DNA of 64,000 nt, from NCBI GenBank assembly GCA_008012115.1, contig SSEB01000003.1:186001-250000 (forward strand). The letters are read 5' to 3'. The position numbers and the translations under genes were made by a program. The DNA is from Nevskiaceae bacterium. Lineage in GTDB: Bacteria > Pseudomonadota > Gammaproteobacteria > Nevskiales > Nevskiaceae. This document shows positions 3,843 through 56,267 of the stretch, in pieces (positions within the stretch are counted from its first letter, which is position 1; each line of letters begins with the position of its first letter). The notes under the pieces are model-generated. The model was not told the origin of the DNA, ran no database searches, and saw only the letters and a program-made list of their open reading frames with translations.

Positions 3843-3958
3843 CGCCACCCGCTCGGCGGCGAAGGGCGACTGCAATTGTTAATAAATATTTACCGAAAAT
3901 AAAATCGATAGATATATTTTAACAATCTGGAGCCGCCGGAGGTCGAGAGCGGGTGACG
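3843..3958. repeat. 116-bp dyad-symmetric AT-core element, copy 1
   Basis: Left arm CGCCACCCGCTC (3843-3854) and right arm GAGCGGGTGACG (3947-3958) are inverted copies with one mismatch. Each arm is followed inward by a 20-bp variable spacer. The inner arms ATTGTTAA (3875-3882) and TTAACAAT (3919-3926) are perfect inverted repeats. From the GTT at 3878 to the AAC ending at 3923, the two halves match at 15 of 19 positions about the exact centre of the element. It lies between yidC and mnmE, 12 bp after the yidC stop. There is no flanking direct repeat and no U-tract. Confidence 0.85.
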
Positions 3959-6438: not shown

Positions 6439-6554
6439 TCGCTTCCGCCGCCGCTACGCCCACGCCGCCGCGCGTTATTAAATATACGCAGATTACTTTG
6501 GATGTTAATTAATTGTAACGCCCGGTCGGGTCACGACGCGGAGAGCGGGTGGCG
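6439..6554. repeat. 116-bp element, copy 2 (left arm degenerate)
   Basis: The right arm GAGCGGGTGGCG (6543-6554) is perfect. Counting back 116 bp puts GTT at positions 36-38 (6474-6476) and AAC at positions 79-81 (6517-6519), in register with the other copies, around an AT-rich core. The expected left arm is not recognisable, so this copy is half-eroded. It lies between two co-directional genes, and its right arm ends 6 bp before the next start codon. Confidence 0.6.
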
Positions 6555-13753: not shown

Positions 13754-13869
13754 AAAATCACCCAGTGCGATGTGGCCAGCCGCAGAATGTTATTAATTAT
13801 CAATTAAAAATCAATTTAATTGACAATTAATAACGCATCGGATCGTCTGCAAGGCCCGAGCGGGTGGCG
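13754..13869. repeat. 116-bp element, copy 3 (left arm degenerate, best core hairpin)
   Basis: The right arm GAGCGGGTGGCG (13858-13869) is perfect, while the left arm is reduced to a shifted TCACCC near 13758. The core is the most symmetric of all copies: 13789-13808 and 13815-13834 are inverted repeats at 19 of 20 positions with a 6-nt loop. GTT and AAC fall in the common register. It lies after the stop of the anti-sigma gene and upstream of degV. Confidence 0.7.
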
Positions 13870-18652: not shown

Positions 18653-18768
18653 CGCCACCCGCTCACGCTGCCATCGCGGCGCAGATTGTTATAAAAAATA
18701 ATCCGAAAAATAATTCAGTAAATAATTAAAAACACATTCTTCGCCGCAGTGACCGAGAGCGGGTGGCG
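18653..18768. repeat. 116-bp element, copy 4
   Basis: Left arm CGCCACCCGCTC (18653-18664) and right arm GAGCGGGTGGCG (18757-18768) are perfect inverted repeats. Spacers of 20 bp flank an AT-rich core with GTT at 18688-18690 and AAC ending at 18733. Core halves match at 12 of 19 positions, weaker than in copies 3, 6 and 7. It lies 19 bp after the tatC stop and upstream of the SDR gene. Confidence 0.85.
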
Positions 18769-31102: not shown

Positions 31103-31218
31103 CGCCACCCGCTCCCGGCAACATGCACGGCGGGTTAGTTATATTTTATATATCATGATTTAAATCATAATATAATAAATAACATTTTCCCTAGGGAAAT
31201 TCGCCACAGCGGGTGACG
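31103..31218. repeat. 116-bp element, copy 5
   Basis: Left arm CGCCACCCGCTC (31103-31114), right arm CAGCGGGTGACG (31207-31218). GTT (31138-31140) and AAC (31181-31183) are in register. The core contains the perfect 14-bp palindrome ATGATTTAAATCAT (31155-31168), within 1 bp of the element centre. It occupies part of the 332-bp gap between the acyltransferase and ABC genes. The rest of that gap holds a promoter and no visible gene. Confidence 0.85.
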
Positions 31219-36205: not shown

Positions 36206-37528
36206 ATGAGTTTGCTCGCCCAACCCTTCCGTCTCCCCTGCGGCGCCACGCTGCCCAACCGACTGTGCAAGGCGGCGATGACCGAGGGCCTGGCGGATGA
36301 ACAGTTGCGCGCCACCGGACGGCATGTCGAGCTCTACCGTCGCTGGTCGGAAGGTGGCGCCGGGCTGCTGGTCACCGGCAACGTGATGATCGACCGCCGC
36401 GTGCTGGAGCGGCCGGGCAATGTCGCCATCGACCCTGCGCCGACGGACGCCGAGTCGATGCGCCGCCTGCGCGAGTGGGCGAAGGCCGGCACCAGCGCCG
36501 GCAATCACCTGTGGATGCAGATTTCGCATGCGGGCCGGCAGTCGCCGCGTTATGTCACCGGCGAGCCGATGGGGCCGTCGGCGGTGCAGCTCGAACTGCT
36601 CGGCAACTACGCGCGGCCGCGCGCGCTGCGCGAGGAGGAGATCCTCGACTTCATCCAGCGCTACGCGCGCGTGGCGGTGACGGCGCGCGAGGCCGGCTTC
36701 ACCGGCGTGCAGATCCACGCCGCGCACGGCTACCTGCTGTCGAGCTTCCTGTCGCCGATCACCAACCAGCGCACGGATGCCTGGGGCGGCTCGCTGCAGA
36801 ACCGCGCGCGCATGCTGATCGAGACGATCCGCGCCACGCGCAAGGCCGTGGGCGCGGATTTCCCCGTCGGCGTGAAGCTCAACTCCGACGACTTCCGCAA
36901 GGGCGGCTTCAGTCACGCCGAGTGCCTGCAGGTGGTGGAGTGGCTCAACGCCGAAGGGCTGGACCTGCTGGAGATCTCCGGCGGCACCTACGAGCAGCCG
37001 CGCCTGCTGGGCTTTGACGGCAAGGCCGGCTCGAAGGCGGAAGAGCCACAGCGCGAGAGCACGAAAAAGCGCGAGGCGTATTTCCTCGACTACGCGGTGG
37101 CGATCCGCAAGATCGCGAAGATGCCGCTGATGGTGGTCGGCGGCTTCCGCACGCGCGCGGCGATGGAGGCGACGCTGGCCGCCGGCGAGTGCGATGTGAT
37201 CGGCCTCGCGCGGCCGCTGTGCACGCACGCCGACACGCCGCGTCAGCTGCTGGCCGGCGAGATGGCGGTGGCGCCGGCGTTCGAGAAAACGCTCAAGCTC
37301 GGCCCCGGCAAGCTGTTTTCCGGCGTCAGCCCGGTGTTCCTGTTCAAGATCCTGCACGTGCTGGGCACGCAGGGCTGGTACTACCAGCAGATCGCGCACC
37401 TGGCCGACGGTGGCCGTGAGCCGCTGCAGCGCAGCGTGATCGGGGCGTTCTTCGCCTACCTGTGGGACGAATACACGACGGCGTTCCGCATGCGGCGTGC
37501 GCGCCGGGCGGCGAAAACAGGCGCTTGA
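36206..37528 (+). CDS. NADH:flavin oxidoreductase (Old Yellow Enzyme family)
   Basis: A 440-aa FMN-dependent ene-reductase-type protein. It shows LPNRLCKAAMTEGL, WMQISHAGRQ, the active-site HAAHGYLLSSFLSPITNQRTDAWGG, GVKLNSDDF and GGFRTRAAME. Length fits the single-domain NADH:flavin oxidoreductases, with a helical C-terminal extension of about 60 residues. Substrate is unknown. Repeat copy 6 begins 12 bp after its stop. Confidence 0.92.
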   Translation: MSLLAQPFRLPCGATLPNRLCKAAMTEGLADEQLRATGRHVELYRRWSEGGAGLLVTGNVMIDRRVLERPGNVAIDPAPTDAESMRRLREWAKAGTSAGNHLWMQISHAGRQSPRYVTGEPMGPSAVQLELLGNYARPRALREEEILDFIQRYARVAVTAREAGFTGVQIHAAHGYLLSSFLSPITNQRTDAWGGSLQNRARMLIETIRATRKAVGADFPVGVKLNSDDFRKGGFSHAECLQVVEWLNAEGLDLLEISGGTYEQPRLLGFDGKAGSKAEEPQRESTKKREAYFLDYAVAIRKIAKMPLMVVGGFRTRAAMEATLAAGECDVIGLARPLCTHADTPRQLLAGEMAVAPAFEKTLKLGPGKLFSGVSPVFLFKILHVLGTQGWYYQQIAHLADGGREPLQRSVIGAFFAYLWDEYTTAFRMRRARRAAKTGA

Positions 37529-37540
37529 ACCCGTTTCAGG

Positions 37541-37656
37541 CGTCACCCGCTCTCCCTCGTCGGGAACCTGAAAACGTTATAAATTATTTATTGATTTTAA
37601 ATTCAATAAATAAAATATAACGACCTGTCCAGGGAAACGGGCAGGAGCGGGTGGCC
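37541..37656. repeat. 116-bp element, copy 6
   Basis: Left arm CGTCACCCGCTC (37541-37552), right arm GAGCGGGTGGCC (37645-37656). The core halves 37575-37594 and 37603-37622 are inverted at 18 of 20 positions, with an 8-bp centre, and are exactly symmetric about the element midpoint. It fills the gap between two convergent genes: 12 bp after the oxidoreductase stop and 21 bp before the apaG stop. Confidence 0.88.
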
Positions 37657-37677
37657 GGTTTTGCGCCCGCAAGACGC

Positions 37678-38061
37678 TCAGTTGAGCGCGCGCGGCACCG
37701 CGAGGCGGAAGGGGTCGATCCTGGCGTCGAACGGCAGGCCGTCCGCAGTCACCATCTGGAAGCTGCCGTGCATGGTGCCGACCGGCGTGTTGAGCGGGCA
37801 GCCGCTGGTGTACTCGAACGCCTCGCCGGGCTTGAGCACCGGCTGCTGGCCGACCACGCCGGGGCCGCGCACTTCCTCGACGCGGCCCTCGCCATTGGTG
37901 ATGACCCAGTGGCGCGTCAGCAGTTGCACGGTCTCCGCGCCTTCGTTGCGGATGGTGATGTGGTAGGCGAACAGGTAGCGCGACGAGCCCGGCTCCGACT
38001 GGTCCGGCAGGTAGCTGGGCTTGACCAGGATGCGCACGCCGCGGGTGGTGGTGTCGGACAC
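37678..38061 (-). CDS. apaG: ApaG family protein
   Basis: A 127-aa beta-sandwich protein (ApaG/DUF525) with YLFAYHITIRNEG, LLTRHWVITNGEG, GPGVVGQQPVLKPGEAFEYTSGCPL and GTMHGSF. Its role is not settled; members are linked to Co/Mg sensitivity and bind pyrophosphate in some reports. It is encoded 10 bp after sufT, not in the usual ksgA-apaG-apaH order. Confidence 0.95.
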   Translation of the reverse strand: MSDTTTRGVRILVKPSYLPDQSEPGSSRYLFAYHITIRNEGAETVQLLTRHWVITNGEGRVEEVRGPGVVGQQPVLKPGEAFEYTSGCPLNTPVGTMHGSFQMVTADGLPFDARIDPFRLAVPRALN

Positions 38062-42739: not shown

Positions 42740-42998
42740 TGCAGTCTAGCCTGCATAATCAACGCAGCCGAGCTTCATCGGTTTACAAGGGCGCGACGAC
42801 CTGTCGCCGGGGTTTATGCACAGTATCGCCGCTGCATGGATCGGGCCGCCGGTCAACGGTTCGGTCATAAGCGACTTTAAGAGTCAATTTTAATTTATTG
42901 TTTAACAAGGATAAATAGGCATTGATTCATTTCAGCGCCCGCCGCGGCCATTTTCGGGCTCCGCCCACAAAATATGCCATGCGGTTCTATCCCCACGG

Positions 42999-43016: not shown

Positions 43017-45203
43017 ATGAGCCGCGAACTGGTCCCGGTGGCCGTGCCGGCGCCTTTGCACCGCCTGTTCGACTACGCCGTGCCGGCATCGCTGGCAGGC
43101 CGGCTCGCGCCCGGCCTGCGGGTGCGTGTGCCCTTTGGACGTCGTCGCCTCGTCGGTGTGGTGGCGGGCGCTGCGCACGCGGGCGAGCCTGGGCGCGATT
43201 ACAAGCTGATTGAGGCGGCGCTGGATGACCGGCCCGTGTTTGCGCCGGAACTGTGGGCGCTGTGCCGCTGGGCTTCGGAGTACTACCAGTATCCACTCGG
43301 CGAGGTGCTCGCCGCGGCCCTGCCGGGCCCGTTGCGCCGCGGCGATGCCGCCGCCATCCGTCGCGAAATCCGGCTGGAGTTGAGCGATGGCGGCCGTGCG
43401 GCGCTGGCGACGCTGCCGGCGCGGGCCACGGCGCAGCGCGCCGTGCTTGCCGCCCTGGACCGCGCGCCGGTCTCGCGCGATGCATTGCTGGCGCAGCTGC
43501 CGAAGGCCGTCGCCGCGCTGCGCAAGGCGCAGGCCGAGGGCTGGGTGGTGCAGGTCGAACAGGCTGCGCCGGTGCCATCGGCCGCCATCGCTGCGGCTCC
43601 GCCGGCGACGGTGGAACAGGCGACGGTACTGGAGGCGCTGCGACGCGCCGATGTGGGGTTCTCCGTCACCCTGCTGGAGGGCGTCACCGGCAGCGGCAAG
43701 ACTGAAATCTATCTGCGACGCGCCGCCGACCTGCTCGATGGCGGCCGTCAGGTGCTGGTGCTGGTGCCGGAAATCGGACTGACGCCGCAGCTCCAGGCCC
43801 GCTTCGTTGAGCGCTTCGGCGGCGTGGTGGCCAGCTTTCATTCGGGCCTGAGCGAGCCGGAGCGCGCCGATACCTGGCTGCGAGCGGCCGCCGGCGAGGT
43901 GCGCATCGTCATCGGCACACGTTCGGCGGTATTCGTGCCGTTCGCCGACCTGGGCCTGGTGGTGATCGACGAGGAGCATGACGCCTCCTTCAAGCAACAG
44001 GATGGCTTCCGCTACTCGGCGCGCGACCTCGCGATCGTCCGCGCGCAAAAGCTCGGCGTGCCGGTGCTGCTGGGCAGCGCCACGCCTTCGCTGGAGACCC
44101 TGCACAATGCACTGAGCGGCCGCTACCGGCATTTGCGTCTGGAGCGTCGGGTGCATCAGGGCGCACCGCCGCGCGTGCATGCGCTGGACGTGCGTGGCCG
44201 CACGCTCGATCACGGGCTGTCGCCGCCGCTGCTGGACGCCGTCGGCCGGCATCTCGAAGCGCGCGGCCAGGTGCTGCTGTTCCTCAACCGCCGCGGCTTT
44301 GCGCCGGTGCTGCTATGCCACGACTGTGGCTGGAGCGCGCCCTGCACGCGCTGCGATGCGCACATGACCGTGCACCGCAGCCGCGCGCGTCTGGTCTGCC
44401 ACCACTGCGGCGCGCAGCAGCCGCTGCCGGCGGCTTGTCCGGCCTGCAGCTCGAAATCCCTGGTGCCGGTGGGCCAGGGTACGGAACGCATCGAGGAAGC
44501 CCTGCGCGCAAAGTTTCCGAAGCACCGCGTCGAGCGCTTCGACTCCGACCGGCTGCGCCGAGCCGGCGAGTTGAACCGTCTGCTCGCCGACATCCGCAGC
44601 GGCGCCATCGACATCCTGGTCGGCACGCAGGTGTTGGCCAAGGGGCACGACTTTCCCGGGTTGTCCCTGGTGGGCATCGTCAGTGCCGACCAGGCGCTGT
44701 ACGGCGCCGACTTTCGCGCCATCGAGCGCATGGGGCAGCTTGTGACCCAGGTGGCGGGCCGCGCCGGGCGCGGCGGCACCGGCGGCGAAGTGATCTTGCA
44801 GACGCACGAACCGGAGCATCCGCTGCTTCGCACGCTGGTCCAGAAGGGCTACATCGCGCTGTGCCAGGCGCTGCTGGAGGAGCGGCGCATGACCGGCCTG
44901 CCGCCGTTCTCGCACCTGGCGCTGCTGCGCGCCGAATCGACCCAGCCTGCCGCGCCCCTGCGCTTCCTGCGCGAGGCCCGGGCGCGGATGGAGGCCGACG
45001 GCAGCGGCGTGATGATCTCCGACGCGATTCCGGCCAGCATGGAGCGCCGCGCCGGTCATACGCGCGCGCAGGTGCTCCTGCAGTCGCGCAGCCGTGCCGA
45101 ACTGCAGCGCAGGCTGGCCGCGTGGGTCACGCAGCTCGATGGCCTGCCCTCGGCGCGACAGGTGCGCTGGTCCCTGGACGTCGACCCGGCCGACCTGTTC
45201 TGA
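43017..45203 (+). CDS. priA: Primosomal protein N' (PriA helicase)
   Basis: A 728-aa superfamily 2 helicase that restarts stalled forks. It has an N-terminal DNA-binding domain (VAVPAPLHRLFDYAVP), Walker A (GVTGSGKTEIY), DEEH box (VIDEEHDASFKQQDGFRYSARD), zinc-binding cysteines (CHDCGWSAPCTRCD, CHHC, CPAC) and the C-terminal helicase motifs (GTQVLAKGHDFPGLSLVG, QVAGRAGR). The start lies 9 bp after a DnaA box. Confidence 0.97.
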   Translation: MSRELVPVAVPAPLHRLFDYAVPASLAGRLAPGLRVRVPFGRRRLVGVVAGAAHAGEPGRDYKLIEAALDDRPVFAPELWALCRWASEYYQYPLGEVLAAALPGPLRRGDAAAIRREIRLELSDGGRAALATLPARATAQRAVLAALDRAPVSRDALLAQLPKAVAALRKAQAEGWVVQVEQAAPVPSAAIAAAPPATVEQATVLEALRRADVGFSVTLLEGVTGSGKTEIYLRRAADLLDGGRQVLVLVPEIGLTPQLQARFVERFGGVVASFHSGLSEPERADTWLRAAAGEVRIVIGTRSAVFVPFADLGLVVIDEEHDASFKQQDGFRYSARDLAIVRAQKLGVPVLLGSATPSLETLHNALSGRYRHLRLERRVHQGAPPRVHALDVRGRTLDHGLSPPLLDAVGRHLEARGQVLLFLNRRGFAPVLLCHDCGWSAPCTRCDAHMTVHRSRARLVCHHCGAQQPLPAACPACSSKSLVPVGQGTERIEEALRAKFPKHRVERFDSDRLRRAGELNRLLADIRSGAIDILVGTQVLAKGHDFPGLSLVGIVSADQALYGADFRAIERMGQLVTQVAGRAGRGGTGGEVILQTHEPEHPLLRTLVQKGYIALCQALLEERRMTGLPPFSHLALLRAESTQPAAPLRFLREARARMEADGSGVMISDAIPASMERRAGHTRAQVLLQSRSRAELQRRLAAWVTQLDGLPSARQVRWSLDVDPADLF

Positions 45204-49580: not shown

Positions 49581-49696
49581 CGCCACCCGCTCTCCGGTCG
49601 ATCCCAGGAGAAATCGTTTTATTTTATTTATCGATAATTAAATAGATAAATAATTTAAAACACATTTCATGGCGTCAACAGCCACAGCGGGTGGCG
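49581..49696. repeat. 116-bp element, copy 7
   Basis: Left arm CGCCACCCGCTC (49581-49592), right arm CAGCGGGTGGCG (49685-49696). The core halves 49616-49632 and 49645-49661 are inverted at 15 of 17 positions about the exact element midpoint. It lies between convergent genes: 25 bp after the Nudix stop and 13 bp before the stop of the Q/M-rich protein gene. Confidence 0.88.
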
Positions 49697-54483: not shown

Positions 54484-56136
54484 ATGGCCAACACACTCGA
54501 CGTGACGATTCCCGACATCGGCGACTACAAGAATGTGCCGGTGATCGAGCTGCTGGTGAAGGATGGCGACACGGTGGCGAAGGATGCGCCGCTGCTGGTG
54601 CTGGAGTCCGACAAGGCGACGCTGGAAGTGCCGTCGCCGGCAGCGGGCGTGGTGCGCGGCCTCAAACTCAAGCCCGGCGACAAGGTGTCGCAGGGCGATG
54701 CCGTGTGCCAGCTCGAGACCACCGCCGCGCCGGCGCCCACGGCCCCGGCGACGCCGAAGCAGGAGGCGCCGCCGAAGCCCGCTGCCGTGCCACCCGCTCC
54801 TGCTGCCGTCAAGCCAGCGCCGCCTACGCCGTCGCCAGCGGCTGGCTCCAATACGACGGTCGCCGTGACCATTCCCGATATCGGTGACTACAAGAACGTG
54901 CCAGTGATCGAGCTGCTGGTGAAGGATGGCGACACGGTGGCGAAGGATGCGCCGCTGCTGGTGCTGGAGTCCGACAAGGCGACGCTGGAAGTGCCGTCGC
55001 CGGCGGCGGGCGTGGTGCGCGGCCTCAAACTCAAGCCCGGCGACAAGGTGTCGCAGGGCGACGCCGTTTGCGAGCTCGCGGTTGCTGGCGCGGCGTCGTC
55101 CGCGCCCGCGGCCGTAGCGGATGTTGCGCCCACGCCGGCATCAGCGCCCGCACCCGCTGCTGCCGCGACCGCACCGGTCAGCGATGCCGCGCCCTTGCCG
55201 CCCCCGGCGGCCTCGGCGGCAAGCGCCGACGTGGTCTACGCCGGCCCGGCGACGCGCAAGTTCGCGCGTCAGCTGGGCGTCGATCTCACGCAGGTGCGCG
55301 GCAGCGGCGCACGCGGCCGCATCGTCATCGGGGACGTGCAGGCGCACGTCAAGAAAGCGCTGGCGGCACCGGCGGCCGTGGCGGTTGCGGCGGCACCAAC
55401 GACGGGTAGCGGTATTCCGGCCATTCCCGCCGTGGACTTCGCGCAGTTCGGTCCGGTCGAGAAGAAGCCGCTGGCGCGCATCCGCAAGCTTTCCGCCGCG
55501 CATCTGCACCGCTCCTGGCTCAATGTGCCGCACGTGACGCAGTTCGACGAGGCCGACATCACCGAGGCCGAGGCCTTCCGCAAGGCCGCGTCCGAGGACG
55601 GCGGCGTCAAGCTGACGATGCTGCCGTTCATCATGAAGGCGGTGGCCAAGGCGCTGGCGGCCTATCCCGAATTCAACAGTTCGCTGGCGCCGGATGGCGA
55701 GAGCCTGATCCTGAAGCAGTACTGCCACATCGGCTTCGCCGCCGATACCGAGAACGGCCTCGTCGTGCCGGTGATCCGCGACGTCGACAAGAAGGGCGTG
55801 GCGCAGCTGGCCAAGGAGTGCGGCGAGCTGGCATCGAGGGCGCGCGACGGCAAGCTCAAGGCCGATGACATGAAGGGCGGCTGCTTCTCGATCTCGTCGC
55901 TGGGCGGCATCGGCGGCAGTCACTTCACGCCCATCGTCAATGCGCCGGAAGTCGCCATCCTCGGCGCCTCGCGCGCGCAGATGAAGCCGGTGTGGGACGG
56001 CAAGGCGTTCCAGCCGCGACTGATGCTGCCGCTGTCGCTGTCCTACGATCACCGCGTGATCGACGGCGCCGCCGCCGCGCGCTTCATCGTGTTGCTGGTC
56101 AAGCTGCTGAGCGATGTGCGCCGTCTGGCGCTGTGA
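54484..56136 (+). CDS. aceF: Pyruvate dehydrogenase E2, dihydrolipoyl acetyltransferase
   Basis: A 550-aa E2 with two nearly identical lipoyl domains (about residues 7-78 and 128-199; lipoyl-lysine in LESDKATLEVPSPA), joined by Ala/Pro linkers. A peripheral subunit-binding domain follows (ATRKFARQLGVDLTQVRGSGARGRI), and then the catalytic domain with the active-site DHRVIDG near the C-terminus. The paired lipoyl repeats are also conserved in DNA. Repeat copy 8 begins 15 bp after the stop. Confidence 0.97.
   Translation: MANTLDVTIPDIGDYKNVPVIELLVKDGDTVAKDAPLLVLESDKATLEVPSPAAGVVRGLKLKPGDKVSQGDAVCQLETTAAPAPTAPATPKQEAPPKPAAVPPAPAAVKPAPPTPSPAAGSNTTVAVTIPDIGDYKNVPVIELLVKDGDTVAKDAPLLVLESDKATLEVPSPAAGVVRGLKLKPGDKVSQGDAVCELAVAGAASSAPAAVADVAPTPASAPAPAAAATAPVSDAAPLPPPAASAASADVVYAGPATRKFARQLGVDLTQVRGSGARGRIVIGDVQAHVKKALAAPAAVAVAAAPTTGSGIPAIPAVDFAQFGPVEKKPLARIRKLSAAHLHRSWLNVPHVTQFDEADITEAEAFRKAASEDGGVKLTMLPFIMKAVAKALAAYPEFNSSLAPDGESLILKQYCHIGFAADTENGLVVPVIRDVDKKGVAQLAKECGELASRARDGKLKADDMKGGCFSISSLGGIGGSHFTPIVNAPEVAILGASRAQMKPVWDGKAFQPRLMLPLSLSYDHRVIDGAAAARFIVLLVKLLSDVRRLAL
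54502..55080 (+). repeat. Internal direct repeat encoding the two AceF lipoyl domains
   Basis: The units 54502-54717 and 54865-55080 are each 216 bp with a 363-bp period. They differ at only a handful of positions, mostly near the ends, and share an uninterrupted identical tract of about 100 bp in the middle. This is more similar than separate protein domains need to be. Confidence 0.9.
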
Positions 56137-56151
56137 AAAGGACCGCCACGA

Positions 56152-56267
56152 CGCCACCCGCTGGATGCTCTCGATAGGCCCGATGAGTTAATAAAAATAG
56201 TACATATTTACTTTTGATAAATAAAATATAACAATCTCTCCCAGCCAATGCACCACAGCGGGTGACG
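56152..56267. repeat. 116-bp element, copy 8
   Basis: Left arm CGCCACCCGCTG (56152-56163), right arm CAGCGGGTGACG (56256-56267). GTT (56187-56189) and AAC (56230-56232) are in register, although core halves match only weakly. Its right end shares CACAGCGGGTGACGGTCA with copy 5. It lies between aceF and the gene at 56453. The remaining 56268-56452 holds a ribosome site and no other visible feature. Confidence 0.85.

Follow-up and report, generated by a model that had tools for sequence, protein, structure and literature searches.

Fixed-length dyad elements of a Nevskiaceae genome look like docking and wrapping sites for a putative symmetric protein complex

The 110-bp dyad element at positions 37544-37653 belongs to a large family of intergenic repeats, and the members of this family look like selected docking and DNA-wrapping sites for a putative symmetric protein complex rather than like hairpins. 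The window, that is, the whole stretch of 64,000 nucleotides that was analysed (C20:186001-250000), lies in a 3.25-Mb genome of 24 contigs that is 94.8% complete, and the copies that it holds are given in Table 1 together with the parts of the element at 37544-37653. The best reading of the family is that of regularly spaced nucleoprotein wrapping sites which would organise the chromosome, and we give this reading an even chance.

Architecture and copy number of the family

The element has the layout CACCCGCT-24-GTTAT(46-bp core)ATAAC-24-AGCGGGTG. In copy 6, for which the first-pass annotation had given the range 37541-37656, 3 bp wider on each side than the element itself, the dyad axis falls between 37598 and 37599. 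The pattern CACCCGCT-N{80,105}-AGCGGGTG has 331 exact matches in its own genome and the reversed pattern has none. Profile work covered 1.97 Mb, which is 61% of the genome, and there the half-site profile found 441-451 half-sites as against 0-7 in the reversed sequence. These form 219 half-site pairs, 214 of them exactly 110 bp long, two 109 bp, two 111 bp and one 90 bp. When degenerate copies are included there are 228 elements in the 1.97 Mb, one per ~8.6 kb, and by extrapolation the whole genome would have ~370 copies, one per roughly 8-8.6 kb. Truncated copies, solo ends, or a longer element with such ends were not seen in the 1.97 Mb.

Conservation is concentrated in a few fixed blocks. 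Columns 1-8 and 33-35 are near-invariant, and the conservation of the outer block extends outward as CGC. The arms (columns 9-32), on the other hand, are weakly conserved and nearly random in sequence while their length is constant; the best arm identity between copies has a median of 0.56 and is in no case above 0.75. From this combination of near-saturated substitution with almost no indels we infer that the spacing is under selection. A module, GTTTTCCCTGGGGAAA, is found in exactly one arm in 96 of the 214 copies (~45%) and in both arms 3 times compared to 12 expected, and this one-arm module gives the dyad element a polarity that is unrelated to gene direction. No described element of this kind was found in the literature.

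Table 1. Copies of the element in the window and parts of the copy at 37544-37653. Dyad scores are matches among the 23 core pairs, centred on the exact midpoint.
Feature	Position in window	Strand	Remarks
Copy 1	3846..3955		16/23
Copy 2	6442..6551		10/23; left outer block degenerate (CTTCCGCC)
Copy 3	13757..13866		19/23; left outer block degenerate (ATCACCCA)
Copy 4	18656..18765		13/23
Copy 5	31106..31215		13/23
Copy 6 (whole dyad element)	37544..37653		20/23; one of 214 pairs exactly 110 bp in 1.97 Mb
Copy 7	49584..49693		17/23
Copy 8	56155..56264		10/23
Parts of copy 6 and its flanks			
Left flank, A+T peaks each 10.6 bp phased to element	37434..37540		family-level property
Left outer block CACCCGCT	37544..37551	+	columns 1-8 at 97-100% family-wide; CGC conserved further outward
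Left 24-nt arm	37552..37575		length fixed, sequence weakly conserved
46-bp AT-rich dyad core GTTAT...ATAAC	37576..37621		20/23 dyad matches
Covarying segment, left half (columns 45-50)	37588..37593		z=7.05 paired with columns 61-66
Covarying segment, right half (columns 61-66)	37604..37609		covariation with columns 45-50
Right 24-nt arm	37622..37645		fixed length, conservation profile
One-arm module GTTTCCCTGGACAG (family form GTTTTCCCTGGGGAAA)	37625..37638	-	in right arm of copy 6
Right outer block AGCGGGTG	37646..37653	+	conservation profile
Right flank, A+T peaks each 10.6 bp phased to element	37657..37763		family-level property

Symmetry and covariation of the core

That the AT-rich cores are dyad-symmetric about the element midpoint had been noticed in the window, and the family confirms it because the 214 copies average 15.2 matches out of 23 while shuffling the cores within each copy yields 9.0 +- 2.3. 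The values of 19/20, 18/20, 15/17 and 15/19 reported earlier for copies 3, 6, 7 and 1 rank these copies about correctly but are slightly generous, the sub-windows having been chosen, and copies 2, 4 and 8, which had been called weaker, are indeed so (Table 1). Most of the core symmetry stems from both halves following one half-site consensus, GTTATWWWWTATTTATCRAWTTW.

Covariation between the core halves, the test proposed in the first-pass annotation, was found in six column pairs. Columns 45-50 and 61-66 have 3.38 of 6 matches within copies as compared to 2.87 expected (z=7.05, 0 of 5000 permutations), this excess vanishes when the halves are slid by 1-6 columns, and a count of structure pairs agrees (covariation score 0.169 versus 0.148 +- 0.010; 11/500 shuffles). 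By within-copy permutation there was no covariation in columns 33-44 (z=0.6), in columns 51-55 (z=-0.8) or in the 24-nt arms (z=-1.7). Thus, a complete lack of compensatory changes, by which the symmetry would have been dismissed, did not occur, but the excess is limited to six column pairs and does not extend to a nested symmetry of the full length. In columns 38-41, A and T replace each other freely in each half and the opposite half does not compensate; a hairpin or cruciform under selection should show compensating changes at these columns, which are not expected if a symmetric protein binds variant half-sites. The lack of covariation in most of the core and in the arms thus speaks for recognition by a symmetric protein rather than for a long hairpin or cruciform, and the confinement of covariation to columns 45-50 could be expected of a symmetric half-site. 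Of the three readings offered at the outset, namely, cruciform, long RNA hairpin and symmetric protein complex, only the last gains support, and it is favoured by the fixed conserved blocks, the fixed spacing, the near-random arms and the rotational phasing of the flanks described below. Single copies do fold strongly as RNA, with z from -2.3 to -8.9, and this follows from the consensus.

Correction of quasipalindromes by template switching is a known type of mutation (e.g. PMC7202029). It was rejected as the cause of the covariation because it should reach past columns 45-50 and it does not. Since copies with at least 20 matches are twice as frequent as in the permutations (11 versus 4.9), a minor contribution of template switching to the covariation is possible.

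Genomic placement and spacing

Placement was examined in the first 800 kb with gene calls from a simple codon-based caller. None of 100 elements lies inside a gene, and they occupy gaps of every type, tandem, divergent and convergent. The elements show no orientation preference relative to genes; for this reason, and because the scanned copy has no consensus sites, a role as terminator or promoter was rejected. About half of the gaps of 200-300 bp hold an element and only one gap holds two. The copies are more evenly spaced than random intergenic picks: the coefficient of variation of the spacing is 0.71, while gaps drawn at random with matched occupancy give 0.91 +- 0.06, and spacings below 2 kb make up 3% (14% at random) and those below 4 kb 13% (33% at random). 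Many dispersed, evenly spaced, non-coding copies, such as would be looked for in nucleoid-organising sites, are therefore what the genome has.

Seven element-free stretches that were examined have a GC content of 0.564-0.637, below the contig values of 0.647-0.670, as acquired DNA would show. Four element-free stretches of 25-67 kb with a GC content of 0.56-0.62 (C5:47139-114234, C12:6884-34094, C3:18939-45941 and C20:144167-169502) are probably acquired islands.

The window also has repeats and AT-rich DNA of other kinds. A tandem duplication of 253 nt, 91% identical, occupies 54497-54749 and 54860-55112, and its translated motif, VIELLVKDGDTV, looks like the repeated lipoyl domains of an acyltransferase. 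The AT-rich island at 42865-42932, which is not a family member, lies just upstream of a priA-like gene (43017-45203, + strand).

Distribution in related genomes

A search of 84 further genomes of the order gave no match to the full pattern, nor did one IMG/VR scan or two GTDB r220 scans from which the own records were left out, the first of these two among the matches listed and the second with a narrower pattern. A stricter core pattern occurs 118 times in its own genome as against 0-1 times in 368 further genomes of the class. The core profile finds seven places in G057, a genome of the same genus (~72% identity in ApaG), and almost nothing elsewhere. One of these seven cores (L205) has the same neighbouring genes on both sides as the element at C5:197848, and another (L209) is just upstream of the ortholog of the gene that follows copy 2 in the window, to which it has a core identity of 31/46 and an arm identity near 27%; in both cases the core is conserved in part and the arms are not, and the orthology rests on gene adjacency. 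The gaps of G057 that are orthologous to element gaps are not enriched in core-like sequence (2/21 versus 2/37). Thus, the family is at least partly old, and it has been either mostly lost in G057 or mostly gained in its own genome.

One isolated core-like sequence each was seen in two more genomes, G049 (L196, E 0.0014) and G033 (L197, E 0.0086). That of G049 is exactly 46 bp long and has AGATT before it as in the family, and it is without outer blocks. In the gap downstream of apaG on C16 of G057 (L088), where the own genome has an element, there is a different repeat-like palindrome, GTCATTCCGAACGCAGTGAGGAATC...GATCCCTCGCGATGCTCGGGATGAC. On the same contig of G057, at C16:285450, a string (CTTTAAGAGTCA-TTTTAA) similar to the AT-rich island of the window was found, so that the island may be a conserved regulatory region. 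The single Y1 (RAYT-like) transposase gene of the own genome (C20:52427-53125) is followed by a repeat that looks like GGGTCGGAAC...AATTAGGGACA, and the string of this repeat is also found near C16:86729 of G057. A REP/RAYT relationship of the elements was rejected because the nearest element is 1.2 kb away from this one gene, beyond another gene.

Phased A+T in the flanking DNA

Past the ends of the element, the A+T content has maxima near -6, -17, -27, -38, -49 and -60, with weaker ones farther out. The power of this periodicity is ~200 times the null at 10.5 bp, and the maxima recur every 10.64 bp (bootstrap 10.56-10.70). From one zone of ~30 bp to the next the amplitude falls from 0.143 to 0.070, 0.031 and 0.017, and beyond about -120 it does not rise above the noise; the phased flank reaches ~110 bp on each side, from ~60 to ~170 bp off the dyad. 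AA/TT carry the signal with GC dinucleotides in antiphase, 89% of the flanks are individually positive, and the phasing is replicated in C20 and in other contigs while element-free gaps are without it. This pattern is that of DNA bent around protein.

In the 3' ends of genes that face elements, the phasing resides in codon positions 1 and 2, and fourfold sites have little of it (0.016 +- 0.017). G057 shares this phase in its orthologous codons, where positions 1 and 2 give 0.064 +- 0.015, and nearly all of the signal comes from codons whose amino acid is conserved. At codons with differing amino acids G057 has no phase (-0.006 +- 0.028) and the own genome keeps some (0.055 +- 0.026). The phasing of codon positions and its presence in G057 imply that it is, at least partly, older than the element or guided its siting, and that this part is not a later adaptation. 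Either the elements settled or survived where the DNA was already phased or they predate the split, and the codon test fits both because two G057 cores occupy orthologous places.

Proposed wrapping sites as possible organisers of the chromosome

If the best reading is correct, then each copy would be a putative site at which protein assembles on double-stranded DNA. Its four fixed and rigidly spaced blocks, namely, two outer CACCCGCT blocks and two GTTAT...ATCRA half-sites, would be read by a complex of two-fold symmetry, which would bend or wrap the DNA outward on both sides with the minor groove inward at AA/TT. Separated from each other and at a density of one per ~8.5 kb, the ~370 sites would then be regular organisers of the chromosome, acting in nucleoid folding or in supercoil pinning or partition. 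More tentatively, and with the chances rather against it, we propose that this is a lineage-specific bacterial chromatin system, in which sequence-defined dyad sites ~8 kb apart, each with a predicted complex wrapping >300 bp by a nucleosome-like AA/TT rotational code, would partition the chromosome. Against the best reading stand the lack of a fitting candidate among the DNA-organising proteins considered below, the codon-level phasing, which in part is older than the element or guided its siting, and the near-identical blocks of hundreds of copies, which must once have been copied, as fits a mobile origin.

Known DNA-organising proteins were considered as candidates. H-NS (PF00816) was not found in the own genome, which is 94.8% complete, or in G057, although 27 of the 58 family genomes encode it. 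An expansion of HU/IHF was rejected because only the usual three genes are present, and so was an archaeal-type histone because phmmer gave no histone-like match in 61% of the genome. The element would be a direct way to a candidate protein that wraps DNA with sequence specificity in a lineage lacking H-NS. If the copies are chromosome organisers, they would be rare bacterial domain organisers that can be read from sequence, counted, deleted singly and tested for effects on supercoiling and contact domains.

Alternative explanations

The main alternative is that the elements are a domesticated or still mobile family of non-autonomous, MITE-like transposons, and this we consider possible but doubtful. 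The outer blocks would then be terminal repeats, curved or protein-wrapped targets would explain the phased flanks, and target immunity would explain the spacing. Hundreds of same-ended copies that are only intergenic and avoid short spacings fit this explanation, as does the near absence of the element in relatives, and the phasing that pre-exists in the coding flanks and in the orthologous codons of G057 is what site choice predicts. However, no excess of target-site duplications was found at boundary offsets of -3 to +8 for lengths of 3-11, although these could have decayed, and 61% of the genome gave neither solo or truncated ends nor an autonomous parent with the same ends. Moreover, the arms are not common to the copies, none being above 0.75 identity, the length is fixed despite their divergence, and no element borders the only Y1 transposase gene (L219). 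If the elements are domesticated transposons, they would be an example of mobile DNA that favours rotationally phased sites and keeps its copies evenly spaced.

The other explanations account for the symmetry or the phasing by known activities. Strong sites for DNA gyrase or topoisomerase IV, with a putative gyrase on the dyad that wraps both arms and controls supercoiling every ~8 kb, would give the same AT-inward logic, with a period of 10.64 bp here and 10.75 bp in the E. coli motif. We regard this as improbable because the periodic zone is ~17-65 bp from the centre in E. coli and ~60 to ~170 bp from the dyad here, because the gyrase motif is degenerate whereas the 8-bp GC blocks of the element are nearly invariant, and because gyrase is universal whereas the element is confined to one genome. 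Still less probable is a cruciform or long RNA hairpin, serving for example as a bidirectional terminator or RNase site: the RNA folding of 37544-37653 is strong (z -8.9) and six column pairs covary, but 17 of the 23 core columns and the arms are without compensation, there is no orientation preference, the scanned copy has no terminator-like site or tail, and no Rfam family reaches the gathering score. Nucleation of an H-NS-type silencer was suggested by the core, which resembles two inverted copies of TCGATAAATT, the H-NS nucleation motif, and whose consensus has TTCGATAAATAATT in each half. The chance of this is slight, and save for an unrelated silencer it is already largely refuted, because a PF00816 protein is missing from the own genome and G057 as searched and because the flank signal is one of AA/TT rather than TA steps. 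Finally, the idea that AT richness alone produces the symmetry is refuted; AT-only alphabets do raise chance matches to 9/23, but this is far from the mean over the 214 copies, and the half-site consensus is family-wide. Wrapping by a symmetric protein complex remains our preferred reading.

Comparison with known systems

The gyrase motif of E. coli is symmetric, with a 36-bp centre, two 47-bp arms and a GC period of 10.75 bp, and has been likened to nucleosomes (PMC6379681); some intergenic repeats of E. coli (BIME-2) are gyrase sites (PMC6379681). Like this motif and the strong gyrase site of Mu, the element has a dyad, a central part with two arms and an AT/GC periodicity of ~10.7 bp that is read as wrapping. 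Unlike the element, those sites have the periodic zone much closer to the centre, are without invariant blocks and do not form a family of dispersed repeats with one constant length. BIME and REP sequences share with the element hundreds of intergenic palindromic copies and a proposed role in supercoil control, but their architecture is another one, whereas the element has a fixed length, an even spacing and a Y1 transposase gene in its genome that it does not flank.

ERIC and Correia elements are about 100-130 bp long, intergenic, imperfectly palindromic and present in many copies, with conserved interiors and truncated forms. The element is similar in size range, placement, imperfect palindromy and copy number, but its arms are close to random and truncated copies of it were not seen. 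With MITEs it shares its shortness, inverted ends and many intergenic copies, and it differs from them in having no target-site duplication, parent element or shared interior and in its fixed length. In the eukaryotic nucleosome positioning code, AA/TT alternates with GC at the period of the helical repeat, and the same alternation is seen here, but the element is bacterial and anchored by a specific 110-bp sequence, and no histone match was found in 61% of the genome. The CdbA protein of Myxococcus xanthus, a nucleoid protein, has 569 binding peaks around the chromosome, a third of them intergenic, and reads a short direct repeat (PMC7156744). Its sites, like the elements, number several hundred on the chromosome, and they differ in that a short direct repeat takes the place of the fixed 110-bp dyad element described here.
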